A DNA stretch of 64,000 bases from Pseudomonas extremaustralis (lineage in GTDB: Bacteria > Pseudomonadota > Gammaproteobacteria > Pseudomonadales > Pseudomonadaceae): contig NZ_LT629689.1 of assembly GCF_900102035.1 (NCBI RefSeq), forward strand, positions 3,208,001 through 3,272,000, in the 5' to 3' direction. The notes under the pieces were generated by a model. That model did no database searches, was not told the origin of the DNA, and was given only the letters and a program-made list of their open reading frames with translations. This document shows positions 16,974 through 50,110 of the stretch, piece after piece. Made by a program: the position numbers and the translations under genes. Position 1 is the first letter of the stretch. Each line of letters opens with the position of its first letter.

Positions 16974-16974
16974 T

Positions 16975-32625: not shown

Positions 32626-32793
32626 GTGGCCATTTTTGTACCAACAGAAGAAGAAACCGAAGCTGATCGCCAAGCAACAATTGACGGCAATGCATCCAAG
32701 CTGGGTGTCACCCTGGCTATCGTTGGAACCCTTGTTTGGGTAGACGGAGACCTCATTGGCGGCCTTCCGCAAAGTGTCGTCATACGTCTTTGA
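32626..32793 (+). pseudogene. Possible C-terminal remnant of a small membrane protein
   Basis: This frame downstream of the tRNA encodes about 55 residues with an acidic start (FVPTEEETEADRQATIDGNA) and one hydrophobic segment (LGVTLAIVGTLVWV). It has no ribosome-binding site or convincing start, and its last 14 bases overlap the end of the LysR gene on the other strand. It looks like the tail of a gene cut by insertion or deletion at this junction, but could be chance. Confidence 0.25.
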
Positions 32794-33649: not shown

Positions 33650-33793
33650 GTCATTGCTCACTAAAAATGAATAATGAACTCACTATAAGTCACTTGTCAC
33701 AAGCGATCAAGTCGTTTACTTTTCAGATTCTGATTTCATACAGAAGTTAAATCATAAATAACTCGATCGGCCTGCAAGGAGAGAGACACTTCA

Positions 33794-34356: not shown

Positions 34357-34424
34357 AAGAAAAGTTCAACGCCACTTAGAGTATTTGATACGAAAACCAT
34401 ACAGGCTTTACCTGCACAGGATTT

Positions 34425-34500
34425 CGCTCTACTCACTTTAAAATATGCCGACTAGCTTACGTAGCCGCGTTGTAAGCTAATCGGCATATCGAGTAGAGCG
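34425..34500. repeat. Long interrupted palindrome upstream of the TauE-type gene
   Basis: Three nested stems pair in register: CGCTCTACTC with GAGTAGAGCG, ATATGCCGA with TCGGCATAT, and TAGCTTAC with GTAAGCTA, around an 11-base loop. One side has an 8-base bulge. This gives 27 paired positions. No T run follows, so it is not a standard terminator; it may be a small mobile element, a recombination site or a regulatory structure. Confidence 0.85.
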
Positions 34501-34567
34501 TAGAATTCAAGCTAAAAGGAGATCATGGTTTTTCGCCGGGCATTCAAGTTACGAAAGGATCCTCTAT

Positions 34568-35350
34568 ATGAGTTTTGACCAAGCTTTAATGGTTCTGGGC
34601 TTTTTCGCCTTTTGCGGCGGTTTGATAGACGCTGCGGTAGGAGGTGGCGGGCTTGTACAAATCCCAGCACTTTTACATGCCCTACCTCAGCAATCCCTTG
34701 CCACCGTTTTTGGCACTAACAAATTAGCTGTTCTGGCTGGAAACCTATCCTCAATATTTAGATATTTAAAAAGAATAAAAATCGTATGGAGGCTGATGCT
34801 CCCCACCATGCTTTCCGCATTTTTATTTGCATTTCTTGGCGCCGCCTCAGTCTCTATTGTGCCAAAAAAACTGATGGAACTTGTTGTCTTTTTTATCCTT
34901 GTAGCAATGGCTATTTATACTTTTACAGAAAAAAATCTGGGCCTGTTCAGCCACAACATACACTACGGAAAAAAGGAAATTATATTAGGCGTTTTTTTTG
35001 GCGGTCTCATTGGTTTTTATGATGGTGTTTTTGGACCAGGTAGTGGAAGCCTTCTGCTTTTTGTTTTTGTTAAATTTTTTGGCTTCGATTTTTTAAACGC
35101 ATCAGCATCTGCAAAGCTGGTCAACTTGGGAACATTTAGTGCAGCCCTTATATTTTTTGTTCCATCTGGTAATGTCTTATGGACAGTAGGTGGCGTGGTG
35201 GCAATTTGTAATATCGCAGGCTCGCTCACTGGAGTTTTTTTAGCACTACGTTATGGAAGCGGATTCATTAGGATATTTTTCTTAGTTCTGCTTTTATTCT
35301 TAATAGGGAGAATGGGGCTAACCATATTTAACAACCACCTTATTAATTAA
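34568..35350 (+). CDS. TauE/SafE family membrane exporter
   Basis: A 260-residue membrane protein with seven to eight hydrophobic segments and the family repeats GGLIDAAVGGGGLVQIPALL near residues 18-37 and FFGGLIGFYDGVFGPGSGSL near residues 144-163. Relatives are implicated in export of sulfite, sulfoacetate or other organic anions. Codon use is strongly AT-rich. The start ATG at 34568 follows GGATCC and a somewhat weak ribosome-binding site. The substrate is unknown. Confidence 0.88.
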   Translation: MSFDQALMVLGFFAFCGGLIDAAVGGGGLVQIPALLHALPQQSLATVFGTNKLAVLAGNLSSIFRYLKRIKIVWRLMLPTMLSAFLFAFLGAASVSIVPKKLMELVVFFILVAMAIYTFTEKNLGLFSHNIHYGKKEIILGVFFGGLIGFYDGVFGPGSGSLLLFVFVKFFGFDFLNASASAKLVNLGTFSAALIFFVPSGNVLWTVGGVVAICNIAGSLTGVFLALRYGSGFIRIFFLVLLLFLIGRMGLTIFNNHLIN

Positions 35351-35491
35351 AAAAACCATAGTTCTTACTAACGAAAATTAAAGTTGACGTCAATCACATA
35401 CGCACATTAGGCAATCGTTGAGTTTTTTATCACACTCACAGAACGGCTCAAGCTATGGGGTACCGGTTGTACTGGATTTACCCGATGCTGA

Positions 35492-35759
35492 TCAGAACAG
35501 CCCTCCCCGCGTCGCCGGCACCCAATTCATGATCACCAACTCTCCGCTGACCTCAGCCTTGCCGCTGGTTCGCCGTGCTGTAACGGATATCGACAGTCTC
35601 AAAATGGAATCCCTGAAAGACGTGTCGAATGTCCGGGTGATCGTTGATGCTAACCATGACCTTCCCTTTGCAGCGTCGCATGAAGTGAGCCATGAGCTCA
35701 GAATTTTCAAAGGGAAAATCCACGCCATCGCCCGCCGTCTCCCAGTAAGGCGGATCCAT
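35492..35759 (-). pseudogene. Fragment of a DNA adenine methyltransferase
   Basis: This minus-strand fragment begins at the catalytic DPPY motif (MDPPYWETAG) and continues through VDFPFENSELM, KGKVMVSINDHPDIRH and IRYSTANQRQG. A missing base then moves the reading to the neighbouring frame, which finishes AEVSGELVIMNW and GGLF. It matches the C-terminal third of phage- or island-type N6-adenine methylases. The N-terminal AdoMet-binding part is absent, so it cannot be active. It abuts the chemoreceptor remnant. Confidence 0.75.
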
Positions 35760-35764
35760 CTGCA

Positions 35765-36004
35765 GGTCAGATCGCCCTCACCCTCTGAGATCTCCCTAAG
35801 CCTGGCGGCAACGGCATTGATGGGGCGGGTGATGCGGGCCACATCAACGCCAGGCCGACTGAATCGCGATGGCTGCACCCGCTAGCGTGACGGCAACGCT
35901 CTGCTTTTCGGAACGGATCATGATTGCTCGAAGTCGATCAGCACCAGTAAGCAAAGGCCGGACAAAAGCACAATTTTCAGGCGAATAGAAACACTTCTGA
36001 ACAT
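35765..36004 (-). pseudogene. Remnant of a methyl-accepting chemotaxis protein
   Basis: The minus strand starts with MFRSVSIRLKIVLLSGLCLL, the first membrane segment of a Pseudomonas chemoreceptor. The periplasmic ligand domain is gone; the reading resumes at RSEKQSVAVTLAGAAIAI, the second membrane segment. Another shift follows, and then ARITRPINAVAARLREISEG and EGDLT of the HAMP domain. The sequence stops there and joins the methylase fragment. Internal deletion plus frameshifts show that it is not functional. Confidence 0.72.
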
Positions 36005-36154: not shown

Positions 36155-37648
36155 CTACAGCTTGATCCAGGTAGCTTTCAGCTCGGTGTACTTATCGAAC
36201 GCATGGAGCGATTTGTCGCGACCGTTGCCCGACTGCTTGAATCCGCCAAAGGGGGCCGTCATGTCACCGCCATCGTATTGATTGATCCACACACTGCCCG
36301 CCCGCAGGGCTTTGGCGGTGAGGTGTGCCTTGGAGATGTCCGCCGTCCACACCGCCGCGGCCAGGCCATATTGGGAGTCGTTGGCGATCGAGATGGCTTC
36401 TTCAACCGAGTCGAACGTGATGACCGACAGAACCGGCCCGAAAATCTCTTCCTGAGCGATTCTCATCGCATTGCTGACGCCATCGAAAATGGTCGGCTGC
36501 ACATACGTCCCGCCGGTTTCCTGAAGAACGCGTTCGCCACCGATGACCAACTGCGCACCATCCTTGTGGCCCGCCTCGATGTAGGCCAGCACGTTGTTCA
36601 TCTGCTGAGTGTCGACCAGGGCGCCCACGTTGGTTTCCGGATCAAGGGGGTTGCCGGGGGTCCAGCCTTTCAGTGCTTCGATGACCATCGCAAGGAATGT
36701 GTCTTTGATCGAGCGCTCGACGAGCAGACGGGAACCTGCGGTACACACCTCGCCCTGATTGAAGGCGATCGCGGCGGCAGCGGACTCTGCGGCGGCGTGC
36801 AGATCGGCAGCGTCGGCAAACACGATGTTGGGGCTCTTGCCACCTGCCTCCAGCCATACGCGCTTCATGTTGGATTCGCCGGAGTAGATCAGGAGTTGCT
36901 TGGCGATCCTGGTCGAGCCCGTGAAGACGATGGTATCGACGTCCATATGCACGGCGAGCGCCTTACCTACGGTGTGCCCGTAGCCCGGCAGTACGTTCAA
37001 GACGCCCGCAGGAATGCCGGCATCAACGGCCAATTGGGCGATACGAAGGGCGGTCAGCGGCGACTTTTCCGAGGGTTTGAGAATCACCGAGTTACCCGAA
37101 GCCAATGCGGGGCCCAACTTCCAGCAAGCCATCATCAACGGGAAGTTCCACGGCACGATCGCCGCGACAACGCCGATCGGCTCACGGGTGACCAGGCCTA
37201 ACTGGTCGTGAGGTGTCGCTGCCACTTCGTCGTAAATCTTGTCGATTGCCTCGCCACTCCAACGGATGGCGTCAGAGGCGCAAGGCACATCGACATTCAG
37301 CGCATCCGAAATCGGCTTACCCATGTCGAGTGTTTCCAGAAGCGCTAGCTCCTCGGCGTTCTGATCCAACAGATCGGCAAAACGCAGCATCGCCTGCTTG
37401 CGTGAAACCGGCGATGAACGGGACCACACACCCGCGTCAAAGGTGGCGCGAGCGACCTTGACGGCGTGATCCGCATCGGCAGCATCGCAGCTGGCAACGT
37501 TGGCAAGAAAGCGCCCGTCGACCGGGCTGATGCACTCAAAAACGGTGTCTGCCGCAGCACTCACATACGCGCCATTGACGAACGCGCGTCCTTCAATCTT
37601 CAGCTGTGCAGCTTTGCTTTCCCAATCGCTCAAAGTTAACGGTTGCAT
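36155..37648 (-). CDS. NAD(P)-dependent aldehyde dehydrogenase, PuuC-like
   Basis: A 497-residue aldehyde dehydrogenase. The cofactor-binding segment VFTGSTRIAKQLL lies near residues 240-252, the general base Glu in WLEAGGKSPNIVF, and the catalytic Cys in FNQGEVCTAGSRL near residues 298-310. It is closest in feel to PuuC/KauB enzymes that oxidise gamma-glutamyl-aminoaldehydes. It lies 79 bases after a class I glutamine amidotransferase gene on the same strand. In this cluster it would oxidise the aldehyde produced after gamma-glutamylation and P450 attack; that role is inferred. Confidence 0.9.
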   Translation of the reverse strand: MQPLTLSDWESKAAQLKIEGRAFVNGAYVSAAADTVFECISPVDGRFLANVASCDAADADHAVKVARATFDAGVWSRSSPVSRKQAMLRFADLLDQNAEELALLETLDMGKPISDALNVDVPCASDAIRWSGEAIDKIYDEVAATPHDQLGLVTREPIGVVAAIVPWNFPLMMACWKLGPALASGNSVILKPSEKSPLTALRIAQLAVDAGIPAGVLNVLPGYGHTVGKALAVHMDVDTIVFTGSTRIAKQLLIYSGESNMKRVWLEAGGKSPNIVFADAADLHAAAESAAAAIAFNQGEVCTAGSRLLVERSIKDTFLAMVIEALKGWTPGNPLDPETNVGALVDTQQMNNVLAYIEAGHKDGAQLVIGGERVLQETGGTYVQPTIFDGVSNAMRIAQEEIFGPVLSVITFDSVEEAISIANDSQYGLAAAVWTADISKAHLTAKALRAGSVWINQYDGGDMTAPFGGFKQSGNGRDKSLHAFDKYTELKATWIKL

Positions 37649-37727
37649 GGTTGTCCTCACGGTTCACGATGGATGGCCCAGGTCGAGCTGGCGCAATTCG
37701 CATGCTGGGTCACGGTTGAATGGGGGT

Positions 37728-38408
37728 TCAGATAGCGCCTAAAAAATCCTCAAGCAGCAGGCGACAGTTGGCGCGATTACCGGCCTCTTTGGCCTGAATC
37801 TCTGCGCGCATTCGTTCTGGCAGATCGCCGGCGCTGGCTAGAAACCGCTGCCCTTCTTCGGTATGGCGCCAGTAGTCAGTCCATGTATCGAACATCTGGG
37901 CATCGATTTCCGGATGGAACTGCACCCCCATGGACTTGCCTTTGCGGTAGGCCTGGGGCGCCAGGTCGGTCTTCGCCAACAAGGTCGAGCCGGGAGGCGG
38001 GGTAAAGGCGTCAAAATGGAAATTGAGCCACGGGCCCTTGTGGGCCCATTCGTCCTGAAGCGTTTGAACTTCAGTCCAACCGATCTCCGCCGTGGAATTT
38101 CGATAGACCTGCCCCCCGAGTGCACGGGCGAGCAACTGGCTGCCAAAGCAGATCCCCAGGGTCGGCACGCCTCGCGCTTGAACTGCCTTCAGCCAACTGA
38201 GCTCGGCGTCCAACCACGACAATCGATGGTCGTAGGCCGATTCCGGGCTGCCCATCACCACAACGATGTCGAGCGCTTCCGGGGCTGGCAGGGCCTGGCT
38301 GATGGAAACGATGTCCAAATCGAGACCTTGCTCACCAAAGAGCTCGGGCAGGCTGCCGGGGACATCCGTATCGGCGTGAATAATTGCAATGGCGCGCGGC
38401 GACTTCAT
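37728..38408 (-). CDS. Class I glutamine amidotransferase-type hydrolase
   Basis: A 226-residue stand-alone amidotransferase domain of the GuaA/TrpG fold. The nucleophile Cys is in GICFGSQLLARALGG (about residues 86-100), and the His-Glu pair in MGVQFHPEID. No synthetase partner is fused or adjacent. Related enzymes cleave gamma-glutamyl amides in polyamine-type pathways. The start at 38408 is preferred; a start eight codons upstream is possible. An operator-like palindrome lies just upstream at 38433-38452. Confidence 0.85.
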   Translation of the reverse strand: MKSPRAIAIIHADTDVPGSLPELFGEQGLDLDIVSISQALPAPEALDIVVVMGSPESAYDHRLSWLDAELSWLKAVQARGVPTLGICFGSQLLARALGGQVYRNSTAEIGWTEVQTLQDEWAHKGPWLNFHFDAFTPPPGSTLLAKTDLAPQAYRKGKSMGVQFHPEIDAQMFDTWTDYWRHTEEGQRFLASAGDLPERMRAEIQAKEAGNRANCRLLLEDFLGAI

Positions 38409-38432
38409 AAGCAAACCCTGATCGGAACTCAA

Positions 38433-38452
38433 TACTTATGAAACCATATCTT
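38433..38452. promoter_or_regulatory. Operator half-palindrome, copy 1 of 3
   Basis: ACCATATCTT, the half-site found in the two palindromes at 38596 and 42709, occurs here with a degenerate partner half. It lies 25 bases ahead of the first amidotransferase start on the minus strand, and about 300 bases ahead of the P450 gene. Confidence 0.55.
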
Positions 38453-38595
38453 AAAGATAATTAGATGCCAAGCGGCTTTTTAAGCGCTGTTTGTTGGGAT
38501 TTTTCGCGCTGAACGGGCATTTTCTCATGCAAGCGATGCCCTGAGAGTGCAAAAACAAGCTCGATTACGCGGTGACCATCGAAAATTATCCTTGA

Positions 38596-38615
38596 AAGAT
38601 ATGGAACCATATTTT
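38596..38615. promoter_or_regulatory. Operator palindrome, copy 2 of 3
   Basis: AAGATATGGAACCATATTTT is a near-perfect palindrome about 140 bases ahead of the P450 start. It lies within a 37-base block (38591-38627) that matches the block ahead of the glutamine-synthetase-like gene at 32 of 37 positions by my count. Such conservation between two promoters points to a shared regulator. Confidence 0.72.
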
Positions 38616-38753
38616 AAATTGAATTCGTACCGCGACCCAGCGTCAGGCCAGGCCCAAAGCGGTCTCGGCCAGCACCACCCACCAACCTTCGCCGGTTGTT
38701 CTGTGCGAATCGTGGGCAGTTCGCTTCTTCTAACAATGATCGAAGGTGTCCAA

Positions 38754-39968
38754 ATGTCTTCCAGTCTCCCCACTACGCTCGAAGCTGCGCCCTACCTGGA
38801 CGTGGCCAACCCTTCCTTTTCCATGCGCTCGAAGGAAGTGCTCGATGCGCGAGAAAAAAGCTGGTTCGCACGCACACCCTATGGCATCGCCGTTCTTCGT
38901 TACGACGAAGTCAACGCACTGATTCGGGATCAACGACTGCGTCAAGGAAGCTACGCATGGCCTGCTCACAACAAGGCGACAGGCAGCTTTGCCGACTGGT
39001 GGATTCGGATGCTGCTCAGTCGCGAAGGCGCCGATCACTCGCGCCTTCGCCGCCTTGCGAACCCGGCTTTTGCGCCAAAGCTCGTGAGAAAACTCACCCC
39101 TGTCTTTCAGGAAATGGCTAACGAAATCATTGATGGTTTCTCGAAGAAAGGTACCTGCGAATTCGTCGCGGACTTTTCCGAGCCCTATGCCACTCAAGTC
39201 ATCTGCGTCCTGCTCGGCTTACCCCGCAGTGAGTGGCGAGGCTTGGCTCAGTTGGCGGTGGACATGGGCCTGGCACTGGGCGTGACGTTCAAGCAGGACG
39301 AAGAAAAGATCAACGCAGCGACCGACAAACTGTTCGGTTATGCCGCCATGGCGGTCGAAGCCCTGAAAAAGAACGGCCTGGGTGATGACTTCCTCAGCCT
39401 GCTGGTTAAAGCCAACGCAGAAGACAAAGCCGCGCTTAGCGATCAAGAACTGTACGACATGATCGTTCTCGCCATTTTCGGCGGCATCGACACCACCCGT
39501 AACCAGATCGCCTTGGCCATGGACATGTTCGTCCAGCACCCCGATCAGTGGAAATTGCTGGGCGACGATCCCGAACTGGCACGAGCGGCGGTGGAAGAAG
39601 TCATGCGTGTGCGCCCGACCGTCACCTGGGTGACCCGCGAAGCGCTGGAAGACTTCAACTATCAAGGACTGGATATCAAAAAGGGAACGACGGTCCACCT
39701 GTTCAGCCAAGCGGCGGGTACCGATCCGAGCGTATTCGAAAATCCCGGATTCGATATCACGGCCAAACGCCAGGCGCACTTCGGTTTTGGCGCAGGCGCT
39801 CACCATTGCATCGGACACTTCATTGCCCGCGGCGACATGACCGAAGCCTTGGCGCTTCTGGCACAACGCATCAAAAACCCGCGTTTCAACGGCGAGGTGC
39901 AATGGCTGCCGGACAGCGGCAACACGGGCCCTATTGCGATGCCCATGGCGTTCGACCCAGAGGTGTAA
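38754..39968 (+). CDS. Cytochrome P450
   Basis: A 404-residue soluble class I bacterial P450. The oxygen-binding I-helix motif is FGGIDTTRNQI near residues 243-253, the K-helix ExxR is EEVMRVRP, and the heme-binding loop is FGFGAGAHHCIGHF with the ligand Cys near residue 350. The ATG at 38754 follows GAAGGTG. It heads an operon with an NAD(P)H flavoprotein reductase and a flavodoxin, a complete electron supply. The substrate is unknown; the neighbouring amine-ligating and hydrolysing genes suggest hydroxylation next to a nitrogen. Confidence 0.95.
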   Translation: MSSSLPTTLEAAPYLDVANPSFSMRSKEVLDAREKSWFARTPYGIAVLRYDEVNALIRDQRLRQGSYAWPAHNKATGSFADWWIRMLLSREGADHSRLRRLANPAFAPKLVRKLTPVFQEMANEIIDGFSKKGTCEFVADFSEPYATQVICVLLGLPRSEWRGLAQLAVDMGLALGVTFKQDEEKINAATDKLFGYAAMAVEALKKNGLGDDFLSLLVKANAEDKAALSDQELYDMIVLAIFGGIDTTRNQIALAMDMFVQHPDQWKLLGDDPELARAAVEEVMRVRPTVTWVTREALEDFNYQGLDIKKGTTVHLFSQAAGTDPSVFENPGFDITAKRQAHFGFGAGAHHCIGHFIARGDMTEALALLAQRIKNPRFNGEVQWLPDSGNTGPIAMPMAFDPEV

Positions 39969-39970
39969 TC

Positions 39971-41269
39971 ATGCGTGCACCCACCATCGCGATAATCGGC
40001 TCGGGCCCATCGGGCTGCTACATCGCTCAAGCGCTTCGACGTGAATGGCAGGACGCCGAGATCACGCTGATTGAAAGACTGCCCGTTCCATACGGCCTGG
40101 TCCGATACGGCGTTGCGCCTGACCATCCAGGCACGAAGGCCGTGACCCGGCAATTTGAACGAATGTTCGAACGCGAGAACATCCAGTTCCTGGGTAACGT
40201 TCATGTCGGCAGCGAACTGCCACTCGCCGATCTGCGTGCGGCCTACGACATCGTGGTGGTTGCAACGGGCCTGTATGGGGATCGCAAACTTGGCGTGCCG
40301 GGGGATGGGCTCAATCACATCTACGGCGCCGGGCAGATAACCCGTTTCCTCAACGATCACCCGGACGAAGAAGGGTTTTCTCCAAGCTTTGGCACGCGTC
40401 CGATCATCGTGGGCAATGGCAACGTCGCCATCGATGTGTTGCGACTGCTGGTCAAAAAGGGCCAAGAGTTTCATGGCTCGGACTTATCCCACGAAGCACT
40501 GGCTCATCTGGCAAGCAGCCCGATAGAACACATCGACGTCGTCGGTCGATCTGCGGCCGCATTCGCCAAATTCGACACGGTGATGATCAAGGAACTCGCC
40601 AAACTTGCCCATGTGCAATTCGAGTTCAACGACGAACTCGGTCTCGAATCGATCGATGACCCGCTGGCCAGAGCAAAGGTGGAAGCGCTGCTCGCACTGA
40701 CTCAATCGGGTGGCGAGTCTGGCGCAATCAAACGTTCGGTCACCTTCCACTTTGGATGGACGCCCGTTCGCGTCGCCGGGGTCGACCACGTTGCAGGCCT
40801 GGTGCTTCAAGACACGCAAAACCCCGGGCGCCAGCACAGTATTCCTGCGACGAGCATTATCACGGCGATTGGATTCGAAGAGCGCCCAGGACTCGATCTG
40901 TGCCGCGCCGACCTGTCACGCGCAGGCGCCGATTTATCCAACGGTTTTCTGGACGACGGACTGTATTGCACGGGCTGGTTCCGTCGAGGGCCCACCGGCA
41001 CGATCCCGGACAATCGAGCGGATGCCAGGCATGTGGCCGAGCACATCGTGAAGGCCGTGACGACAGGCGCCCTGGCGCTGGGGAAACCCGGTTATGGCGC
41101 GATCGCAAACGCCATCAACCGCCCGACCGTTTGCTACGAAGACTGGACGCGCATCGATATGGCCGAACTCAAAAATGCCCCCGTTGACCGTGCACGCCGA
41201 AAATTCCGCAACAAAGTGGCCATGTTGGGCGCCGCCCAGTCCCATCCAGCAGGAGAACACAACAAATGA
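39971..41269 (+). CDS. Adrenodoxin-reductase-type FAD/NADPH oxidoreductase
   Basis: A 432-residue flavoprotein of the FprA/adrenodoxin reductase family. The FAD motif is IIGSGPSGCYIAQAL near the start, followed by PVPYGLVRYGVAPDHPGTK. The NADPH motif is VGNGNVAIDVLRLL near residues 149-162. The GWFRRGPTGTIPDNRADA segment binds FAD in this family. It begins two bases after the P450 stop and overlaps the flavodoxin gene by four bases, so it is the natural electron donor to that flavodoxin. Confidence 0.93.
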   Translation: MRAPTIAIIGSGPSGCYIAQALRREWQDAEITLIERLPVPYGLVRYGVAPDHPGTKAVTRQFERMFERENIQFLGNVHVGSELPLADLRAAYDIVVVATGLYGDRKLGVPGDGLNHIYGAGQITRFLNDHPDEEGFSPSFGTRPIIVGNGNVAIDVLRLLVKKGQEFHGSDLSHEALAHLASSPIEHIDVVGRSAAAFAKFDTVMIKELAKLAHVQFEFNDELGLESIDDPLARAKVEALLALTQSGGESGAIKRSVTFHFGWTPVRVAGVDHVAGLVLQDTQNPGRQHSIPATSIITAIGFEERPGLDLCRADLSRAGADLSNGFLDDGLYCTGWFRRGPTGTIPDNRADARHVAEHIVKAVTTGALALGKPGYGAIANAINRPTVCYEDWTRIDMAELKNAPVDRARRKFRNKVAMLGAAQSHPAGEHNK

Positions 41270-41706
41270 ACATTCATGTCCTCTACGGCACAGAAACCGG
41301 CAACGCTGAAATGGTCGCCGACGATATCGTCGATGCACTCAGCGCAGATGTGAGTATCGAAAGCTTCGACATGTCTAAATGCTCAGTCGCCGATCTGTCG
41401 GCGGACGTGTTCTATTTCATTGTGTGCTCGACCTATGGTGACGGCGAACTACCGCAATCAGCCCAACCCTTCTTCGACGCGCTGAACAGTCAACGACCCG
41501 ACCTGTCCGGACTTCGGTTCGCGGTCTTTGGCCTGGGCGACAGCTTCTATGAAACCTTCAATCGGGGCAGCGAGATCATTGCGCAGACACTGACTGAGCT
41601 GGGCGCCGAGCAAGTAGGCGAACGAGGGATGCATGACGCCAGCGCAGGGCAACTGCCAGGTGACATCGCAATGCCCTGGGCCAAGGCCGTTTTGTCAGGA
41701 CTGTGA
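41266..41706 (+). CDS. Flavodoxin, redox partner of the P450
   Basis: A 146-residue flavodoxin. The FMN phosphate loop reads YGTETGNAEMVADD near residues 6-19; the two ring-binding loops are CSTYGDGELP and FGLGDSFYETF. Its start overlaps the reductase by ATGA. A P450 served by a flavodoxin instead of a ferredoxin is uncommon; P450cin with cindoxin is the best known case. It most likely carries single electrons from the reductase to the P450. Confidence 0.93.
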   Translation: MNIHVLYGTETGNAEMVADDIVDALSADVSIESFDMSKCSVADLSADVFYFIVCSTYGDGELPQSAQPFFDALNSQRPDLSGLRFAVFGLGDSFYETFNRGSEIIAQTLTELGAEQVGERGMHDASAGQLPGDIAMPWAKAVLSGL

Positions 41707-41806
41707 ACGAGACCATCAGCCCGATGACGATCATCTGAACCAGCGCCTTCGGGTGCTGCTTGAATGACCGTTGTGAGAGGCTGCACTACGACTTATGAGG
41801 GCAAAG

Positions 41807-42526
41807 ATGTCTCAGCGGCCAATGCGGATTTGTATCCTGGAAAACGGACTTACGCCGGACGATTTGATCGATGAATTTGGGTCGTACCCAAGCATGATCG
41901 AGAAGTGGCTATCCCCTTTTCTTCCCGAAGCCACGTTCACCTATCTATCCGTCGTGCGCGGAGAAACACTCCCAGCCCCGGATGACTTTGAAGGTTTTAT
42001 CCTGACGGGATCGAAACACAGCACCTATGAGCGCAGCCCATGGATGCTGGAACTGATCGCCCTGCTGCAGCGGCTCAGGCAGAAACGCATTCCCGTCTTC
42101 GGTATTTGCTTTGGTCATCAGATCATGGCGGATGCGTATGGAGGGCTGAATGCGAAATCTGACAAAGGTTGGGGTGTCGGCGCCCAGCAATACACCTACG
42201 ACATACCCGACCTTCCAGCCTGCAGCGCGTCCTTTGTGTTCCATCAAGACCAGGTTCAAAGCATTCCGCCGCAAGCGACACGTATAGGCGGATCAACCCA
42301 TTGCGAAAACGGAGTGTTCAGCTACTCGTTTCCGGCTATCTCCGTGCAGTACCACCCCGAATTCTCGTCCGAATATACCCAGGCGCTGGCGAAAAAATTT
42401 CGAGCCGACCTGCTTGGCGACTATGTCTCAGCCAACGCGCTGGACGCCATCGCTCATCTACCGGTGGATGCGTCTCCTGTCGCGAAATGGGTCGCGGATT
42501 TCTTCCGTACCTATCGCGCGAAGTAG
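41807..42526 (+). CDS. Second class I glutamine amidotransferase-type hydrolase
   Basis: A 239-residue stand-alone GATase with catalytic Cys in FGICFGHQIMADAYGG (about residues 104-119) and the His-Glu pair in SVQYHPEFSSEYT. It differs clearly from the first amidotransferase of the cluster. The ATG at 41807 follows GAGGGC. It lies 100 bases after the flavodoxin gene and ends at a terminator. A role in cleaving a gamma-glutamyl amide is plausible from context; two such enzymes could act on different intermediates. Confidence 0.83.
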   Translation: MSQRPMRICILENGLTPDDLIDEFGSYPSMIEKWLSPFLPEATFTYLSVVRGETLPAPDDFEGFILTGSKHSTYERSPWMLELIALLQRLRQKRIPVFGICFGHQIMADAYGGLNAKSDKGWGVGAQQYTYDIPDLPACSASFVFHQDQVQSIPPQATRIGGSTHCENGVFSYSFPAISVQYHPEFSSEYTQALAKKFRADLLGDYVSANALDAIAHLPVDASPVAKWVADFFRTYRAK

Positions 42527-42550
42527 GCATCACCCAATCGCTTAACCTCT

Positions 42551-42577
42551 GGGCCTGTATGTATAGGCCCTTTTTTT
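42551..42577 (+). terminator. Rho-independent terminator after the second amidotransferase
   Basis: GGGCCT and AGGCCC pair around an 8-base loop and are followed by seven Ts. This separates the P450-side transcripts from the glutamine-synthetase-like operon. Confidence 0.88.
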
Positions 42578-42708
42578 GCCTTTCACATTTCAAAAAGCCT
42601 CTCAAAACGCCATGAAGGCAATCATAAAGGCGCTTTTTGCTTAAAAAAAATCAAATAGCCTGCACAAAATAACCTTACCGACCGGCATTTTTCACATTTA
42701 AAGCTTGA

Positions 42709-42728
42709 AAGATATAAAACCATATCTT
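42709..42728. promoter_or_regulatory. Operator palindrome, copy 3 of 3
   Basis: AAGATATAAAACCATATCTT has perfect AAGATAT/ATATCTT arms around six bases. It lies 106 bases ahead of the glutamine-synthetase-like gene in the block 42704-42740, which is nearly the same as the block ahead of the P450 gene. The FCD-type GntR regulator encoded at 45146 is the best local candidate to bind it. Confidence 0.75.
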
Positions 42729-42834
42729 AAATTCAATGCGTCCCTGCCAGGTGCCATGAGCCAGCCGTCAGAGCAGGAATACAAAAAAATGGGCCGCTGC
42801 CATGCCTTGTCCATGCAGCGCCAGGAGAACTCGA

Positions 42835-44208
42835 ATGACTGCGTTAGACCTGCACAGAGAATTCAACACCAGCGCCCAAGCCTCTCAGGAACTGGTTAAA
42901 CGCATCAAAGATGCCGGCGTCGAATACCTCTACTACCAAGTTGTCACCCTCTCCGGTCGTGTCATTGCCAAGGTAGTGCCGGCCAAGCATTTGTTGCGCA
43001 ACCTTGAAAAAGGCGTGCAGTTCCACCGTACCGCCGTGTCCGACCTGCAAACATCCCGGTCTGGAGAACTGCTGGGCGGGGGCGCGCAAGCAGCCGAATT
43101 CACCGCGATTCCCGACATCGACAGCTTCAACGTGCTTCCCTGGGATAAATCCATCGGGTCGTTCTTCTGCCGCATGTACGAGCCGGACCACCGTCTCGAA
43201 AACGGTGGTGCGCCGCTGGGTACCGACGCCCGTGGGCATCTGATCCGTTCACACCAAGCCTTCATCAAGGAAACTGGCTTACGGATGAAGTCGGGCTGCG
43301 AGCCGGAAATGACCTGGTTCGGTGACAAGCTGGAAGTACAAGTCCGCCCGGGAGCAAGCCCGGCCTATCACATGGGCAACCTTGAACTCATGCGGCCGAT
43401 CTACAAACGCGTCATGGAATATGCGATTTCCATGGGCCTGGACATGATCGAAGGCGATTACGAAGATCCGGGTCAGCTCGAACTGAACTGGATGTTCGAC
43501 TCGTGCGAGCTGACTGCCGATCGCCTGATGACTTATCGCTTGATCTGCCGCCAGGTGGCGAGCGAGTTTGGCGTCAAGGCGAGCTTCATGCCAAAGCCGA
43601 GCACCGGCAGCATGGGGAACGGTTGCCACCACAACGTCAGCCTGTGGAAAGACGACCGCAATGTTTTGGCCGAGCCTGGTCGCCGTGAATTGCACCTGAC
43701 AGATGTCGGCCTGCACGCCCTGGGTGGCATGCTCGCTCACGCGCCTGGCTCCATGATGATCATGGCGTCGACCGTAAACTCCTACAAACGCTTCTGGGAC
43801 ACCGGCCAGTTCGCACCGACTCGAATCAACTGGGGCATGGACAACAAAACCTGCACTGTTCGCCTGTCGGCCAACGGTCGCCTGGAGTACAAGCTCCCCG
43901 ACGCCAGTGTGAACCCGTACCTTTCCCACACCGCGCTTCTCGCCGGAATGCTGGACGGCATCCGCAATAAAACCAGCCCAGGCCAGCCCGAGAGCAAAGA
44001 CAGCTATGTCGACGGTGGCGAGTCGGTCGGCATCCCTCTCACCCTCGGCGATGCGCTTGCAGCGTTTGACCGGGACGACGTCGTTCGCAGCGCATTCCCT
44101 GCCGAGTTGACCCAGCTCTACCGTGAATTGAAGGCTGACGAGTGGGCGCGCTCTTGCGGCGTAGTGACCGATTGGGAACGCAAAATGTACCTGGACTACC
44201 TGCCATGA
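42835..44208 (+). CDS. Glutamine-synthetase-like gamma-glutamyl-amine ligase
   Basis: A 457-residue member of the glutamine synthetase family (PuuA-like branch). The N-terminal beta-grasp domain includes YYQVVTLSGRVIAKVVPAK. The catalytic domain has GCEPEMTWF for metal binding, FMPKPSTGSMGNGCHHNVSL for the ATP-binding His region, and an NSYKRFW-type loop. PuuA-type enzymes join glutamate through its gamma-carboxyl to an amine using ATP. The ATG at 42835 follows CAGGAGAAC. The next gene overlaps by four bases. The amine is not known. Confidence 0.88.
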   Translation: MTALDLHREFNTSAQASQELVKRIKDAGVEYLYYQVVTLSGRVIAKVVPAKHLLRNLEKGVQFHRTAVSDLQTSRSGELLGGGAQAAEFTAIPDIDSFNVLPWDKSIGSFFCRMYEPDHRLENGGAPLGTDARGHLIRSHQAFIKETGLRMKSGCEPEMTWFGDKLEVQVRPGASPAYHMGNLELMRPIYKRVMEYAISMGLDMIEGDYEDPGQLELNWMFDSCELTADRLMTYRLICRQVASEFGVKASFMPKPSTGSMGNGCHHNVSLWKDDRNVLAEPGRRELHLTDVGLHALGGMLAHAPGSMMIMASTVNSYKRFWDTGQFAPTRINWGMDNKTCTVRLSANGRLEYKLPDASVNPYLSHTALLAGMLDGIRNKTSPGQPESKDSYVDGGESVGIPLTLGDALAAFDRDDVVRSAFPAELTQLYRELKADEWARSCGVVTDWERKMYLDYLP

Positions 44209-44924
44209 TCGACAACGCTCATCCAACAGCCGAATTCCGGGTTATTTGTGCCAACCTCCCTGCTCCACCGCTGTTCTGGAGAGATGACACAGGGTTCCGC
44301 CATGGCTACGAGTCCGACCTGGGCAGGCTACTGGCGCGCACACTTGGCCTGCCGTTTCAGTTCGCTTATCAAAACTGGGCGGATTTTTATCCCGCGCTGC
44401 AGGCCGGGAAAGGCGACGTCATTTTGTGCGGCCAGGGTATTTCTGACCATCGCAAAACCCTGGCTGACTTCACTGAGCCCTACGCAGTGTTCGATGAAGC
44501 GGTGATGATTCGACGTGGTGCCAATCTGCGATCTGCATCCGACCTCGTCGGCAAGAAAGTCGGTGCCATCGCGCAAAGCTTGAACATGGCACTGGCAGAA
44601 ACGTTCACCGGGTGTATTTGCGTGCCTTTCGGTGGCGACAGTGACGATGTTTTGGGTGACATGGTGACGGCACTGCGCGACGGAAAAATCGATGCCTTCG
44701 TAGATGACGACGTTGCCTTGGTACCCCTGGCCGAAGAAGCAGATCTCGAAATCGGCTTCAGTGTTCCCACTCAAAACAAGTGGGGCATTGCGATCAAAAA
44801 GGGCGATGACGTCTGGCTCGCGCAAGTCAATGAAGCCCTCGCGATAGTCAAATCGAACGGTCAACTGGAGCGGCTTTGGCGGAAGTGGATGCCTTCGCTG
44901 AGCTACCCTTTCCCGACCAGTTGA
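44205..44924 (+). CDS. Solute-binding-fold protein without a signal peptide
   Basis: A 239-residue protein of the amino-acid-binding SBP family 3. Typical segments are FRHGYESDLGRLLARTLGLP, the WADFYPALQAGKGDVILCG ligand region, and the hinge LVGKKVGAIAQS. The start MIDNAHPTAEFRVICA overlaps the ligase gene by ATGA and leaves no room for a signal peptide, so the protein should stay in the cytoplasm. No ABC transporter genes are nearby. It could sense or bind the pathway substrate, or act as an accessory to the ligase. Confidence 0.82.
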   Translation: MIDNAHPTAEFRVICANLPAPPLFWRDDTGFRHGYESDLGRLLARTLGLPFQFAYQNWADFYPALQAGKGDVILCGQGISDHRKTLADFTEPYAVFDEAVMIRRGANLRSASDLVGKKVGAIAQSLNMALAETFTGCICVPFGGDSDDVLGDMVTALRDGKIDAFVDDDVALVPLAEEADLEIGFSVPTQNKWGIAIKKGDDVWLAQVNEALAIVKSNGQLERLWRKWMPSLSYPFPTS

Positions 44925-44981
44925 GAAACGGCATCCCCCTGTATCTCAACATGTCTGCTCGGCCTTACCACCCGAGCCGTT

Positions 44982-45013
44982 GGCCGCACCTGTCGAGGGG
45001 CGGCCTTTTTTTT
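44982..45013 (+). terminator. Rho-independent terminator after the ligase operon
   Basis: GGCCGC and GCGGCC pair around a 12-base loop and are followed by eight Ts. It ends the two-gene ligase/SBP unit. Confidence 0.87.
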
Positions 45014-45145
45014 AAAATTTTATTTGAGAGGTTTAAGCGCGAAGTGCGGACTGAGTCTGGTAAATTGCGGCGATGAAACACAATCATTTGGGAGGATTGG
45101 CGAGTCGATTAAGCTCGTTCGAGCGAAATTGACTACCGATGGATT

Positions 45146-45892
45146 ATGAACAACAACGCCAGTGCAAGAACCGCCTCGTTCATGAGGTTGCGACAGGAAG
45201 GCCGGACCGAAGAAGTCGTCCGCAGGCTGATTGAAGTGATTGACCTGGGGCTCATCGCAGAAGGCGAGCAATTGCCAAGCGAAAACGAGCTGGCGATGCA
45301 ATTCGGGGTGGCAACCGTCACCCTGCGCGAAGCGTTGGCTTACTTGCGAGAACGCCGCGTCATTGAAACCAGGAGGGGCCGCAATGGCGGCAGTTTCGTT
45401 TGCCCGGCGGTAGAACTTCCAGAAGTCCATTTGCGTGCCCGCCTCACGGACATGAGCGCCCTGGAACTGCGGGATCTGTGCGACGAACATGTCGCCATTT
45501 CAGGGGCAGCCGCTCGACTCGCGGCCAAGCGCTCCTCCTCGGAGCATCACGCCAAGCTCCAGCACTACATTGATGCGCTAGGCGAAGCGGCCACCCGAAC
45601 AGAACGTCGTCGTGCGGATGCGCGCTTCCACATCGAGATTGCCGTTGCCGCGCAGTCAGTCAGGCTTACCCACGCAGAAATGAGCCTGCAAGCGGAAATC
45701 GGTGAGCTGATGTGGATTCCAGGGGAAGGCTCCATCACACCCGAAGCCGTCCAGTCAGAACATCGAGCCATTGCAGATGCGATCATGGCGAATGACCCCA
45801 ATCTTGCTGGCGCATTGGCAGAAGCCCACGTCACGCGCGGCATCAAAAGGCTTATAGATCTGAGATTAGATCTCTTATCCGAAGTCGCCTGA
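45146..45892 (+). CDS. FadR/FCD-type GntR-family regulator
   Basis: A 248-residue regulator. The winged helix-turn-helix spans about residues 20-90 (EGEQLPSENELAMQFGVATV, then TLREALAYLRERRVIETRRG). The C-terminal FCD ligand domain has DARFHIEIAVAAQS with its metal-binding His and a later EHRAI. FCD regulators usually sense organic acids. It lies inside the P450/ligase cluster and is the only DNA-binding protein there, so it probably reads the repeated palindrome. It is followed by a Cache-domain gene. Confidence 0.9.
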   Translation: MNNNASARTASFMRLRQEGRTEEVVRRLIEVIDLGLIAEGEQLPSENELAMQFGVATVTLREALAYLRERRVIETRRGRNGGSFVCPAVELPEVHLRARLTDMSALELRDLCDEHVAISGAAARLAAKRSSSEHHAKLQHYIDALGEAATRTERRRADARFHIEIAVAAQSVRLTHAEMSLQAEIGELMWIPGEGSITPEAVQSEHRAIADAIMANDPNLAGALAEAHVTRGIKRLIDLRLDLLSEVA

Positions 45893-45989
45893 AAGTGGCA
45901 TGCGCCTTGCTCTTTTTCCTGCAAGCGGCTTTTTGATGCGCAGTGAGTGGAAGCTACTCACCGCATCGATCTCAAACTGCGTTACGAGA

Positions 45990-46769
45990 ATGCAACCGGG
46001 GCCATACATCATGCCAGTACCACTTTTTCGCACTGACGCAGACGTCTGCGCGGACAGTATCAATGCTTCGATCGGTAACGTTTTCGATCAGTTGACGATC
46101 TTGGCAAACGAAGTCGTGGAGATTTGGCGACGTGAGGCTGCATTGGGCAAGAAGCCCTCGTCCAAAGACCTGGCGGTGCTGAAACCGAAAATTGACGCAC
46201 AGCTCCAAGGCTCGAAATCCTGCATGCATGGAACAGGCGTCGTTCTGGAGCCGGGAGAGTTGGACGACTGCGAGATGTACCTTGAGTGGTGGAGAATGGG
46301 CTCTGCGGGCAAGGCTGTCCCCATGACGCTCAACTTCAATCGACGCAGCGAAAGCTTCTACAACTATCAGAGCATGCCGTGGTTCGCGCGCCCCAAAAAT
46401 ACAGGGAGCAACGTTGTCGTAGGCCCTTACGTCGATCTTTATGGGGCCGACATGTACATCATGACGTTCTCTCTTCCGATCCACGTTGATGGTCGTTTCG
46501 TGGGTATCGCCGGCGCGGACATCGCATTGCACCGCTTTGAACGAATCCTGCTTTCAAGCCTGATCAAGATGGAAAACGAAGCCCTGATCGTGTCCGAGGA
46601 GGGCCGTATCATCGCCGCCAACACCGCCAATTGGACTGTCGGCGATATGGCTCACCAGGCAATGAATCGCCAGGAAACAGGCTGTCGCGTCATTGAACTC
46701 GGCGAAGCCGCCGCGCACTGGTCTCTTGTTCAGCGCCCCTGCAAGCGTAAACACCGGGGCGCGGCGTAA
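45990..46769 (+). CDS. Soluble Cache-domain protein
   Basis: A protein of about 259 residues from the ATG at 45990; starts at 45900 or 46011 are also possible and none has a strong ribosome-binding site. The Cache signature is clear: MPWFARPKNTGSNVVVGPYV, then DMYIMTFSLPIHVDGRFVGIAGADIAL. Cache domains are normally periplasmic sensor parts of receptors, but no membrane segment or output domain is present here. It lies behind the FCD regulator and may sequester or present the inducer. The role is not known. Confidence 0.75.
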   Translation: MQPGPYIMPVPLFRTDADVCADSINASIGNVFDQLTILANEVVEIWRREAALGKKPSSKDLAVLKPKIDAQLQGSKSCMHGTGVVLEPGELDDCEMYLEWWRMGSAGKAVPMTLNFNRRSESFYNYQSMPWFARPKNTGSNVVVGPYVDLYGADMYIMTFSLPIHVDGRFVGIAGADIALHRFERILLSSLIKMENEALIVSEEGRIIAANTANWTVGDMAHQAMNRQETGCRVIELGEAAAHWSLVQRPCKRKHRGAA

Positions 46770-46833
46770 GCCGACAGCCTGCCAGCGTAGGGACGCTCAA
46801 GCCTCCCTACGCTGCATGGACCAAACTACCGAC

Positions 46834-47835
46834 TCACACCGACTCCCCCACCGAAACATTCGAAAGCATTGAGTGGATCTGCTGAGTGGCCTCTTGCGTT
46901 CTTGAAGCGAGCTTTTTTACTTCATCGGCCACAACAGAAAAACCACGCCCCAAATCCCCTGCCCTCGCGGCTTCAATTGCAGCATTCAGTGCAAGCATGG
47001 TCGTTTGATCTGCGATTGCCTTTATCACCCCAAGCGCAGTGGAAATCTGAGCATAGGTCGCCTGCATGGCCGCCTGCTCACGCTGACGCAACTCGATGGC
47101 ATGTCGCTCAGAAGAGATATCTCGAACAGCCCCTATCAGCCTGCATACCTTGCCGTCAGGCCCTGTCATGGCCCGCCCCCGCTCTCGATACCAAACCATG
47201 CCGCGCTGCTTATGCCTCATTTGATACTCAACGACGTAATGTTCAGCGCTATGGGGCGCTCGTACATACGCTTCGATAATCTTCAATATCCTGGGGAGAT
47301 CGTGGGGATCAACGATTTGGTTATACGTTTCCCAGCCATCAAGAAACTCCAAATCCGAATATCCAACCAACTCCTTGAACTGACGAGACCATCGCAGCTC
47401 ATTGGAAGGATGCTCCAGGTCTCCATCCACGATCTTCAGATCCCAACAGCCTTCGGTGAGGGTCTGCTTGGTAAGTTCCCACACTTGCGCCTCTGCACTA
47501 AGTGCTGTCAGTTGTTTATTGATCGATTCAAAGGCCAGGCGCTCCTCAGTTGAGCATCGATTCAGATCAGCCACCTCGTTTGCCAGGGCACTGATTTTAT
47601 CCGTACTGACAATTGCGTCTTGCGCCCAGTTTTCCTGCGCCCGCGTCAGGTTCTCAACCTGGCCCTCCAGTGCTTTTATCCGCTCGGCCAAAGCCAGCAC
47701 ATTTGAATACGCCGGCACATGAGCCTTGCTCAATAACTGCAGACTTTCCGGAACCAGAGGCTCTTGCCCCAGCAATGCACGCAGGGCGCGATTCAACTCA
47801 TCAAATTCCGCACTCAACGAACCCTTGAACCACAT
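46834..47835 (-). CDS. Soluble PAS-domain minimal chemoreceptor
   Basis: A 333-residue cytoplasmic protein with no membrane segment. Residues 50-115 look like a coiled coil, residues 120-245 form a PAS/PAC domain ([17 protein letters not shown], then [12 protein letters not shown]), and the last 75 residues hold only the core of a chemoreceptor hairpin: [20 protein letters not shown], then [15 protein letters not shown]. Ordinary receptors have far longer helices. The ATG at 47835 follows GAGGAGCAACGTG. It may sense redox state or a metabolite and talk to CheA/CheW arrays. Confidence 0.85.
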
Positions 47836-47943
47836 CACGTTGCTCCTCTACTGCGCAACTCAGCCATAGCGCTCTGAAAACTGCGGCCTTCAAGCCACGA
47901 TCAGCACGGAATACAGCCCATAATTGAAATGCCCACAGAAATG

Positions 47944-47972
47944 AAAAACGCCCTTATTGAAGGGCGTTTTTT
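47944..47972. terminator. Terminator of the APC permease gene
   Basis: ACGCCCTT and AAGGGCGT pair around a 4-base loop and are flanked by A and T runs on the two sides, so it can stop transcription in either direction. It lies directly after the permease stop. Confidence 0.87.
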
Positions 47973-47985
47973 ATTACGTCAGAAA

Positions 47986-49500
47986 CTATGCGGTGGTTCC
48001 GCGAGCCCCGCCGATGACAACGGCATCCCTCGATGGAATGGCATCTCCGTAGATGGCCGCGCTGCGCAAATGAGGGCGGGCAATCCACATGTAGAGAAAG
48101 CCGACCGCGACGACGGCGAAAGAAGACAGCACAACAATCCAGTTGTCATACCAAGGTGCACCAGGGGTGCGTGGCCAACTGATGTTCACCATCGCGGCCA
48201 CGCCATAGATCAGCGCCCCAACGTTGGTAATCAAACCGAGCGAACCAAGTTGGTACTCACCGCTTGGCTTCCAGCCTTTCAAGCGAGCCCGCAATGCCGC
48301 AAGAACGACCATCTGGAACGCGATGTAGATGCCTACCGCAGAGAAGGAAATAATCTTCAAAAGCGCATCAGCGGAAATCATCGAACCGACGACAATCACA
48401 CCCGGCAACAGCGCCGAGAGCAACAAGGCATAGGGCGGTACATGACGCTCATGGGAGAACTGGGAAAGCAGGCCGCTGGCAAAAATCATCTTGTCGCGAG
48501 CGTATGCATAGATCAGTCGACTCGCCGCAGCTTGCAAGCTCATCACGCAAGAAAGGAAGGAGATCAGCACGACGCACAACACAGCAGTGGAGCCCACCGG
48601 GCCAAACGCATTTGCCAGAATGGCCGACACTGGATCAGCAAGCGTACCGTTGATAACCGCGCCGATATCGACCACGGACATAATCAACGCAAAGCAGACG
48701 AAAGTTGCGGCTACACCACCAATGTAAATCGTGCGGCGCATCGACTTAGGAATACGCAGACCGGGCTCTGGAACTTCCTCGGCAACGTCGCCGCACGCCT
48801 CGAATCCGTAGTATTGGAAGACACCGATAAGACTCGCGGCCAAGAATGCTGCGGTATAGGAGCCCGTACTCTCCGAACCGAACGTATTGAAGAAGATGCT
48901 CATGTCGTGGTGACGCTCAAACACCAGCAGGTACACGCCGACAACCAACGCCCCCATTATTTCGGCGAAAAACCCGATCAGCGCTGCCTGCGCCAAGACC
49001 TTGGTGCCCATCATGTTGATGACGGTCGCAATGGCCAGAATCACCAACGCACAGATTACGTTCGCACCTGTTGTCGGCTCGAATCCTACAACTGAAGCGG
49101 TGTATGGAGCTGCGCCATAGGCAACCCCTGCGATCGTCGAGAACATCGCCATCACGTAGACCCAACCGGTCATCCACGCCCACTTGCGCCCCCAAAGACG
49201 CCGGGCCCATGGATAGACACCGCCTGCGAGCGGGAATTGAGAGACGATCTCACCAAACACGAGCGCCACCAGAAGCTGACCAACACCCGCGATGAGCAGC
49301 GCCCAAATCATCGGCGGGCCGCCCAGCATGAGAGAGGATGCAAACAAGGTGTAAATGCCGACAACCGGCGAAAGGTAAGTAAAACCCAAGGCAAAATTCG
49401 CCCAAAGGCTCATATCGCGTTTGAATTCTGATTTGTATCCCAGGGACGCAAGACGCTGGGCGTCGACGTCAACCGGGGAATTCACGGGATGATTCGTCAT
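47986..49500 (-). CDS. APC-superfamily amino acid/amine permease
   Basis: A 504-residue permease with about 12 membrane segments. It has ANFALGFTYLSPVVGIYTLF near the N-terminus and FPLAGGVYPWARRLWGRKW further on, as in the amino acid/choline transporter and GABA permease groups. The ATG at 49500 follows GAGGTTGC; the long upstream extension is not coding. It is placed between the amine cluster and the csiD/lhgO genes, so the amine, 5-aminovalerate or a related compound could be the substrate. The exact substrate is unknown. Confidence 0.88.
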   Translation of the reverse strand: MTNHPVNSPVDVDAQRLASLGYKSEFKRDMSLWANFALGFTYLSPVVGIYTLFASSLMLGGPPMIWALLIAGVGQLLVALVFGEIVSQFPLAGGVYPWARRLWGRKWAWMTGWVYVMAMFSTIAGVAYGAAPYTASVVGFEPTTGANVICALVILAIATVINMMGTKVLAQAALIGFFAEIMGALVVGVYLLVFERHHDMSIFFNTFGSESTGSYTAAFLAASLIGVFQYYGFEACGDVAEEVPEPGLRIPKSMRRTIYIGGVAATFVCFALIMSVVDIGAVINGTLADPVSAILANAFGPVGSTAVLCVVLISFLSCVMSLQAAASRLIYAYARDKMIFASGLLSQFSHERHVPPYALLLSALLPGVIVVGSMISADALLKIISFSAVGIYIAFQMVVLAALRARLKGWKPSGEYQLGSLGLITNVGALIYGVAAMVNISWPRTPGAPWYDNWIVVLSSFAVVAVGFLYMWIARPHLRSAAIYGDAIPSRDAVVIGGARGTTA

Positions 49501-50078
49501 GGTGCAACCTCGTATTTTTGTGTTCTCGGCAGCGACGTAGAAAGGAGGGCCATCTAGCATTTTTTTGCTTTTGGAAACGCGAACGCTCATCGCAGGTCTA
49601 GAAATACCTTCAAATACATTTGAAGTCAAAGGAAAATGTTTTGCACCCCGCCAACCGGTATAAAACCCAGCAAACACTGACAAAAAACCGAATAAACGCT
49701 GAAAAAACGCCAAACACAACAGCCTGACCGGCCAAAAAGCGCTCAAAAAAGCGCTCAATATCGTTGACAATACATATGGATTAGAATCTTAATGTCCGCA
49801 AAGAGCCAGGCACGCAGCCGGCCCCATGCGTTAAGAAGGCTTCTCATGCGAGAAATAATCGGTGCGTTCGAGATTGGCGTCATGCAGGTGTCAGAAACAC
49901 AAGAGCCTTCTTCCCGGGAGGAAGCTTATGACGCGGGCACCTGGATACCGTTCGCAGCATTGCTCGTTCAGGTGTTTGCCTGTTTCAGCCTGGCTCACTG
50001 ATTCCCCTGAATTCATCCACGCCCGCAATCGACTTGAGTTATCCAGACGGAAGATGACCAGGGATCATTTTTTAGCTT
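49501..50078. other. Long intergenic region between the permease gene and lhgO
   Basis: The region is AT- and A-run-rich near the permease, with two AAAAAGCGCTC-like repeats at 49735-49757. TTGACA at 49764-49769 could be a -35 box on the plus strand, but no good -10 lies 17 bases on. ACATATGGATTAGAATCTT (49772-49790) resembles a worn copy of the cluster operator. A 69-codon frame at 49792 has no ribosome-binding site and I do not support it. Confidence 0.4.
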
Positions 50079-50105
50079 AAAAAAAGCCGCTATCACTAGC
50101 GACTT
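50079..50105 (-). terminator. Terminator of the csiD-lhgO operon
   Basis: On the minus strand GTCGCT and AGCGGC pair around a 6-base loop, followed by seven Ts. It lies immediately after the lhgO stop. Confidence 0.82.
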
Positions 50106-50110
50106 TCTTA

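Follow-up and report, generated by a model that had tools for sequence, protein, structure and literature searches.

Saturated nitrogen heterocycles abound in drugs, pesticides and solvents, and genes resembling glutamine synthetase (GS) adjoin cytochrome P450s of the ring-amine type in Proteobacteria and Actinobacteria, where they have no agreed role. What could such a ligase do beside such an oxygenase? An island of Pseudomonas extremaustralis raises this question. It lies at about 36.1-53.3 kb of the stretch of 64,000 nucleotides analysed here (the window; positions 3208001-3272000 of contig NZ_LT629689.1, in a single-contig genome of 6.67 Mb) and groups a P450 and its electron donors with a GS-like ligase, an aldehyde dehydrogenase, two amidotransferases and a glutarate module. 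The genes, their families, their linkage and the conservation of a shared operator are observed. Taken together they indicate that the island is real and well conserved and is probably a near-complete pathway for a ring amine. We consider it fairly likely that it is an accessory catabolic set for a small cyclic secondary amine, piperidine being the most likely substrate and pyrrolidine perhaps another.

An initial annotation of the window had listed a P450, a reductase, a flavodoxin, an aldehyde dehydrogenase, two amidotransferases, a ligase, an FCD regulator and sensor-like proteins. All of these were found with intact reading frames and standard motifs in an open-reading-frame and profile scan; among those grouped as sensor-like are a Cache protein and a binding protein that lacks a signal peptide. 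The starts chosen were 38754 (P450), 39971 (reductase), 42835 (ligase) and 44205 (binding protein). The conserved unit continues past the end given in that annotation, to about 53288: in G128, a genome of another species of the genus, positions 36156-53288 are collinear at 85-88% DNA identity, including the permease, LhgO, CsiD and CsiR.

The P450 (38754-39968, forward strand, 404 residues) is the sole PF00067 gene found in the genome and retains the catalytic motifs of an intact enzyme (heme loop, ExxR and, in the I helix, GGxDTT). It is 40.2% identical over 386 residues to the solved chain 3p3l, which we take to be AurH, of the same family as PipA and MorA, and 56% identical to a P450 of pGKT2, presumably CYP151C; by convention, about 40% identity or more places P450s in one family. 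Its likeness to 3p3l and to the pGKT2 protein makes it a candidate P450 of the PipA/MorA (CYP151) type. We also assume that the Mycobacterium pipA and morA genes bear the CYP151 name and have a GS neighbour. Downstream on the same strand lie a flavoprotein reductase (39971-41269), whose closest solved structures are FprA (1lqt, 173 bits) and adrenodoxin reductase, and a flavodoxin (41266-41706; PF00258) for which cindoxin (4oxx, 119.5 bits) tops the solved relatives, with the runner-up at 71. Judged among solved structures, the two genes adjoining the P450 would thus form a cindoxin-type chain, and the pairing of a cindoxin-like flavodoxin with an FprA/adrenodoxin-reductase-type reductase is shared with the Cin (P450cin) system, which has a different P450 and a terpene substrate.

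The GS-like protein (42835-44208, forward strand; PF00120, 245 bits) had been described as PuuA-like, which it is not especially: the type III model TIGR03105 scores higher (281 bits) than the gamma-glutamylputrescine synthetase (PuuA) model NF045547 (190 bits, cutoff 650), and neither cutoff is reached. The nearest solved chains are 7cql, named a type III glutamate-ammonia ligase, and 9qur, a glutamate-methylamine ligase. When compared with L067, a GlnA-like protein of the same genome, the ligase keeps the metal-binding Glu/His positions and the NSYKR stretch but carries His for D50, Phe for E327 and Lys for both R339 and R359 (GlnA numbering); the E327 position is occupied by Trp in both of the closest solved relatives. 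This comparison rests on L067; two other GS genes of the genome (L069, L071) were left out, the row of L068 was in a wrong reading frame and that of L074 lacks its start. Retention of the ATP- and metal-binding residues together with replacement of those of the ammonium site is the pattern of the GoaS/PuuA/GMAS group, and we propose that the protein is a gamma-glutamyl-amine ligase. It is one of nine GS-family genes in the genome.

Enzymes that could process a gamma-glutamylated product stand alongside. The aldehyde dehydrogenase (36155-37660, reverse strand; PF00171, 563 bits) falls below the cutoff of the PuuC model NF007352 (703 bits against 850), yet that is its best NCBIfam model. Both class I amidotransferases, the first a proposed gamma-glutamyl hydrolase (37728-38408, reverse strand) and the second at 41795-42526 (forward strand), match PF00117. 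In the alignment of 18 rows made for each, no more than one row departs from the stretches GICFG, with the catalytic Cys, and HPE, with the catalytic His/Glu. In the aniline system an amidotransferase-like enzyme can also hydrolyse the tagged amine, with toxicity at high level (PMC11335346). By analogy, such back-hydrolysis could explain why the island has two amidotransferases.

How far does this set of genes travel together? With the P450 as query (E <=1e-60, own genome counted), matches occur in 2 of 249 genomes of a genus sample, 14 of 148 of a family sample and 3 of 398 of a phylum sample, a rarity which marks it as accessory. Twenty loci, all picked via their P450 and some clipped by contig ends, were compared. 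The GS-like gene is present in all 20, the binding protein and amidotransferase 1 in 17, the reductase with flavodoxin in 16, as are amidotransferase 2, the FCD regulator and the Cache protein, and the PuuC-like dehydrogenase (at least 52% identity) in 14. Gene order differs among these loci, and the recurrence of the module across many genomes argues that the arrangement is not chance. In 31 of 37 loci the P450 has a GS-like gene no more than 10 kb away; in Rhodococcus opacus the distance is about 20 kb. The alphaproteobacterial relatives (L009, L010, L046 and L047 by name, others assigned from the same layout) have mostly another reductase or a ferredoxin, plus two GS-like genes. Since a GS stands near most of the P450s and the donors differ among loci, P450 and GS form, on the evidence of these neighbourhoods, the core in most cases, and one electron donor can take the place of another. 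A third kind of donor was seen in Paracoccus sp. TOH p2 (L047, 10001-12880), where a diflavin protein resembling the sulfite reductase flavoprotein follows the same P450 type. A minimal version occurs on pCLA1 of Streptomyces clavuligerus (L045, 10001-12632), with a P450 (52%) adjoining a GS-like gene (64%) and no further protein of the window's module matched within 10 kb.

The nature of the product is indicated by the far end of the block. LhgO, an L-2-hydroxyglutarate oxidase (50111-51370, reverse strand; NF008726, 609 bits, cutoff 299), the glutarate hydroxylase CsiD/GlaH (51427-52413, reverse strand; NF002814, 508 bits, cutoff 333) and the regulator CsiR (52594-53292, forward strand; NF008576, 373 bits, cutoff 218) all exceed their equivalog cutoffs and make up a glutarate hydroxylation module. 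CsiD occurs in only 2 of 38 close relatives, own genome included, yet is collinear with the module both here and in G128. Within the family sample of 148 genomes the P450 is found in 14, CsiD in 25 and both in 11 (Fisher 9e-8, kinship ignored). The two lie within 20 kb of each other in 4 of these 11 (binomial about 2.5e-6, with the distance chosen after seeing the data and with copy number and genome size assumed). Among 17 Pseudomonadaceae loci, six have CsiD within 20 kb of the P450 (the window, G128, G320, G371, G275 and L008); flanks were extended only for the four G-numbered genomes, and those of L007 and L035 are too short to tell. Missing steps are also supplied next to the module elsewhere: a class III aminotransferase over its cutoff in both loci scanned (L008, L028), and GabD over its cutoff in L029, L033 and L036, the L008 copy, clipped by the locus end, scoring under it. 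The genome of P. extremaustralis has a GabD over the cutoff, located away from the island. Because CsiD/LhgO, GabD and a class III aminotransferase are linked to the module, a C4/C5 omega-amino acid is the expected product, and the gene content points to a cyclic amine being converted to an omega-amino acid, here of the C5 kind as from a piperidine-like ring. The earlier suggestion that a C5 product would leave as glutarate is therefore supported, as CsiD, LhgO and CsiR share the block and are linked in other species. An APC-family permease (47986-49770, reverse strand; PF13520), which has a counterpart of at least 52% identity as a neighbour in 7 of the 20 relative loci, is proposed to serve uptake.

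A shared operator ties the transcripts together. The palindrome AAGATATGGNNCCATATCTT, searched with up to three mismatches, has just two sites in the genome, one before the P450 (38596-38615, 1 of 18 positions mismatched) and one before the ligase (42709-42728, 2 of 18); the backwards control gave 0. A weaker copy (38433-38452, 4 of 18) lies by the start of amidotransferase 1, where similar copies stand in several relatives. With up to four mismatches, AAGATATGGNNCCATATCTT was found in 17 of 19 loci (absent from L037 and L042). It precedes the P450 in 16 loci and the ligase in 11, and several loci have it near amidotransferase 1; one first-order randomisation of all 19 loci gave 0 matches. The palindrome also precedes GabD in L033 and, in L034 and L035, counterparts matching at 36% that were not profile-scanned. 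The FCD/GntR protein (45146-45892, forward strand; PF07729, PF00392) is conserved with the module and is for that reason the candidate reader of the palindrome, which can serve as a regulon motif in searches for this pathway in other genomes.

From these observations we infer every reaction of the pathway, its substrate and the identity of the operator-binding regulator. Supplied with NADPH electrons through the FprA-type reductase and the flavodoxin, the P450 would hydroxylate the carbon adjoining the ring nitrogen, and the resulting hemiaminal would open to an amino-aldehyde. The ligase would add gamma-glutamate to the nitrogen. With the P450 acting first, the tag would trap the opened primary amine and block its re-closure to 1-piperideine; with the ligase acting first, the P450 would open an N-acyl ring. 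Both orders would converge on gamma-glutamyl-5-aminopentanal, which the PuuC-like dehydrogenase would oxidise to gamma-glutamyl-5-aminovalerate and from which an amidotransferase would then release 5-aminovalerate and glutamate. Glutarate would arise from 5-aminovalerate by transamination and the action of GabD, encoded elsewhere, and CsiD with LhgO would carry it to 2-oxoglutarate, the FCD regulator and the palindrome co-regulating the P450, ligase and amidotransferase/dehydrogenase transcripts. On such a scheme the island's full gene set gives the GS-like protein a specific and testable job, namely keeping the opened ring open.

An amine route joining gamma-glutamylation, a P450, a PuuC-like dehydrogenase and amidotransferases, as the initial annotation had it, is thus borne out by genes, families and linkage; the order in which it placed them, ligase and then P450, is not supported as stated. 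Oxidation of morpholine by MorA, together with its reductase and ferredoxin, is reported (PMC9477822), and for this reason the ligase may come into play once the ring is open. The Ipu and aniline-type systems start with glutamylation (PMC6776027, PMC11335346). Sequence conservation favours neither order, and we regard P450 first as slightly likelier than ligase first.

Several points weigh against assigning the island to a small ring amine. We know of no GS-like ligase shown to act on a secondary ring amine, and in five loci with a P450 44-59% identical there was no GS in the 19 kb examined, so that the pair is not obligate. The operator was not found before the ligase in 8 of the 19 loci. On the side of the glutarate exit, CsiD is absent from the genome or placed elsewhere in it in 9 of the 17 Pseudomonadaceae loci, its co-occurrence with the P450 is confounded by genus, and the transaminase and GabD lie outside the window's block.

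Other substrates would make different use of the same enzymes. An acyclic alkylamine could be handled as in the isopropylamine (Ipu) pathway, whose cluster on pTC1 likewise combines a ligase with a multicomponent P450 and an amidotransferase (PMC6776027): the ligase would form a gamma-glutamyl alkylamide, the P450 would hydroxylate its chain and the amidotransferase would free an amino alcohol or amino acid. The P450 and ligase of the island are, however, only 28% and 26% identical to the Ipu proteins of pTC1, and the linked CsiD/LhgO, GabD and class III aminotransferase indicate a C4/C5 omega-amino acid, which together make this route rather unlikely. A Puu-like catabolism of polyamines or diamines, such as cadaverine or putrescine derivatives, in which the P450 stands in for the PuuB oxidase, would account for the PuuC-like dehydrogenase and the amidotransferases. 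Cadaverine likewise gives 5-aminovalerate and glutarate (PMC6265302), and L033 has a match to aminobutyraldehyde dehydrogenase, under the cutoff of the equivalog model (869 against 909) and over that of the subfamily model (828 against 615). Against it stand the 190 bits of the ligase where gamma-glutamylputrescine synthetase requires 650, the eight other GS-family genes of the genome and the ring amines on which relatives of this P450 type are reported to act (PMC9477822), and we judge it improbable.

It is also conceivable that the GS-like protein merely assimilates ammonia released by the pathway and that no gamma-glutamyl intermediate is formed, which is how the Gulosibacter authors read their own GS (PMC9477822). 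With the GlnA residues D50 and E327 replaced by His and Phe, a PuuC-like dehydrogenase alongside as well as two amidotransferases whose catalytic residues are intact, and the GlnA-like gene L067 elsewhere in the genome, this appears very unlikely. A small cyclic amine, opened by the P450 and tagged by the ligase, remains our preferred account.

The description of the island as a new system was overstated in view of what is already known. Ipu combines a gamma-glutamyl ligase, a multicomponent P450 and a class I amidotransferase (PMC6776027), and Gulosibacter molinativorax has PipA/MorA-like P450s with a GS (PMC9477822). The Ipu system is ferredoxin-fed and serves an acyclic amine, no glutarate genes are annotated in the 20 kb of pTC1 examined, and the identities given above rule out orthology with the island. 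In the bioI/pipA clusters of Gulosibacter, P450s 52-53% identical to PipA/MorA have a contiguous reductase and another electron-transfer protein, as well as a GS gene whose number is adjacent; FprA and cinC transcripts, presumably from the contiguous genes 436 and 435, rise on molinate. Unlike in the island, the excerpted account describes no dehydrogenase, amidotransferase or glutarate module beside the P450, and its authors assign the GS to ammonia assimilation and propose that a seven-membered ring follows a lactam route (PMC9477822). The Mycobacterium genes pipA (piperidine and pyrrolidine) and morA (morpholine) also encode P450s for saturated ring amines, but morA uses a ferredoxin where the island has a flavodoxin (cited in PMC9477822). 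The terminal steps of CsiD, LhgO and CsiR are those of Escherichia coli and Pseudomonas putida, fed there by lysine or cadaverine (PMC6265302, PMC6667623), whereas here they are physically joined to the P450 and ligase. Among the matches listed from the open-licence literature, no title or abstract opening concerned gamma-glutamylation of ring amines with a P450. As far as these matches show, what is new is the joining of dehydrogenase, amidotransferases, shared operator, glutarate exit to 2-oxoglutarate and cytosolic binding protein.

The pGKT2 relative deserves a separate remark. In Gordonia sp. KTR9 the stretch 10458-17469 of locus L044 contains FCD, Cache, P450 and GS genes resembling the module, and the GS, which is truncated at its end, continues in frame into XplB. 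The stretch resembles what is left of a ring-amine cluster next to xplA, more than a gene set for hexahydro-1,3,5-trinitro-1,3,5-triazine (RDX). Descent of XplA and XplB from the module was considered and dropped: trees of the flavodoxin with the XplA domain and of the reductase with XplB, built from rows picked by likeness to the window proteins, did not resolve (supports 0.26-0.89). Within 8-9 kb of xplB-xplA in Rhodococcus DN22, and of a similar reductase and flavodoxin-P450 pair in R138, no second P450 or GS is annotated.

The oddest member of the island is an SBP_bac_3 protein (44205-44924, forward strand) that overlaps the ligase stop by four bases (ATGA). In 16 of 19 loci its start codon falls within the ligase stop (NTGA), L039 being unsettled and L041 and L065 having no overlap; 8 of the rows compared began at an internal start. 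The gene also adjoins a GS in Rhodococcus opacus. No signal peptide was found, the N-terminus being short and polar (hydropathy over 12 residues at most 1.5). The nearest solved relative is AncQR (101 bits), which we take to be a reconstructed glutamine/arginine binder. All 13 sequences compared, Rhodococcus included, keep the Arg of RKTLADFTxPY and the Asp of IDAFVDD, which align with those of AncQR, where they are presumably the ligands of the carboxylate and amine of the amino acid. A gamma-glutamyl-amide is a glutamine analogue with the same amino acid head group, which this Arg and Asp would bind. It is thus possible, if doubtful, that a transporter-type binding protein has moved to the cytosol, where it would bind the gamma-glutamyl-amide and hand it over among ligase, dehydrogenase and amidotransferase, or report it to the ligase. 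Either way it merits biochemical attention. Predicted structures of this protein and of the Cache protein had a mean predicted local distance difference test score (pLDDT) of 49.5 and 59.0, respectively, and were set aside.

Two further genes encode possible sensors. The Cache-domain protein (46011-46769, forward strand; PF02743, PF22673) is a proposed amine sensor, and a protein resembling PAS-MCP chemoreceptors (46834-47838, reverse strand; PF00015, PF08447) is collinear in G128; it is short, and MCP matches also occur near the cluster in several relatives. The stretches flanking the block on both sides are common to G128 as well, with the exception of 32.5-36 kb, which has no match there. 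In the window, 32490-36000 has a tRNA-Gly(CCC), after which the GC content drops to about 0.45-0.48, together with a LysR regulator and a TauE-type exporter; at the same place G128 has an aminotransferase and other genes, one of which resembles a short-chain dehydrogenase/reductase by eye.

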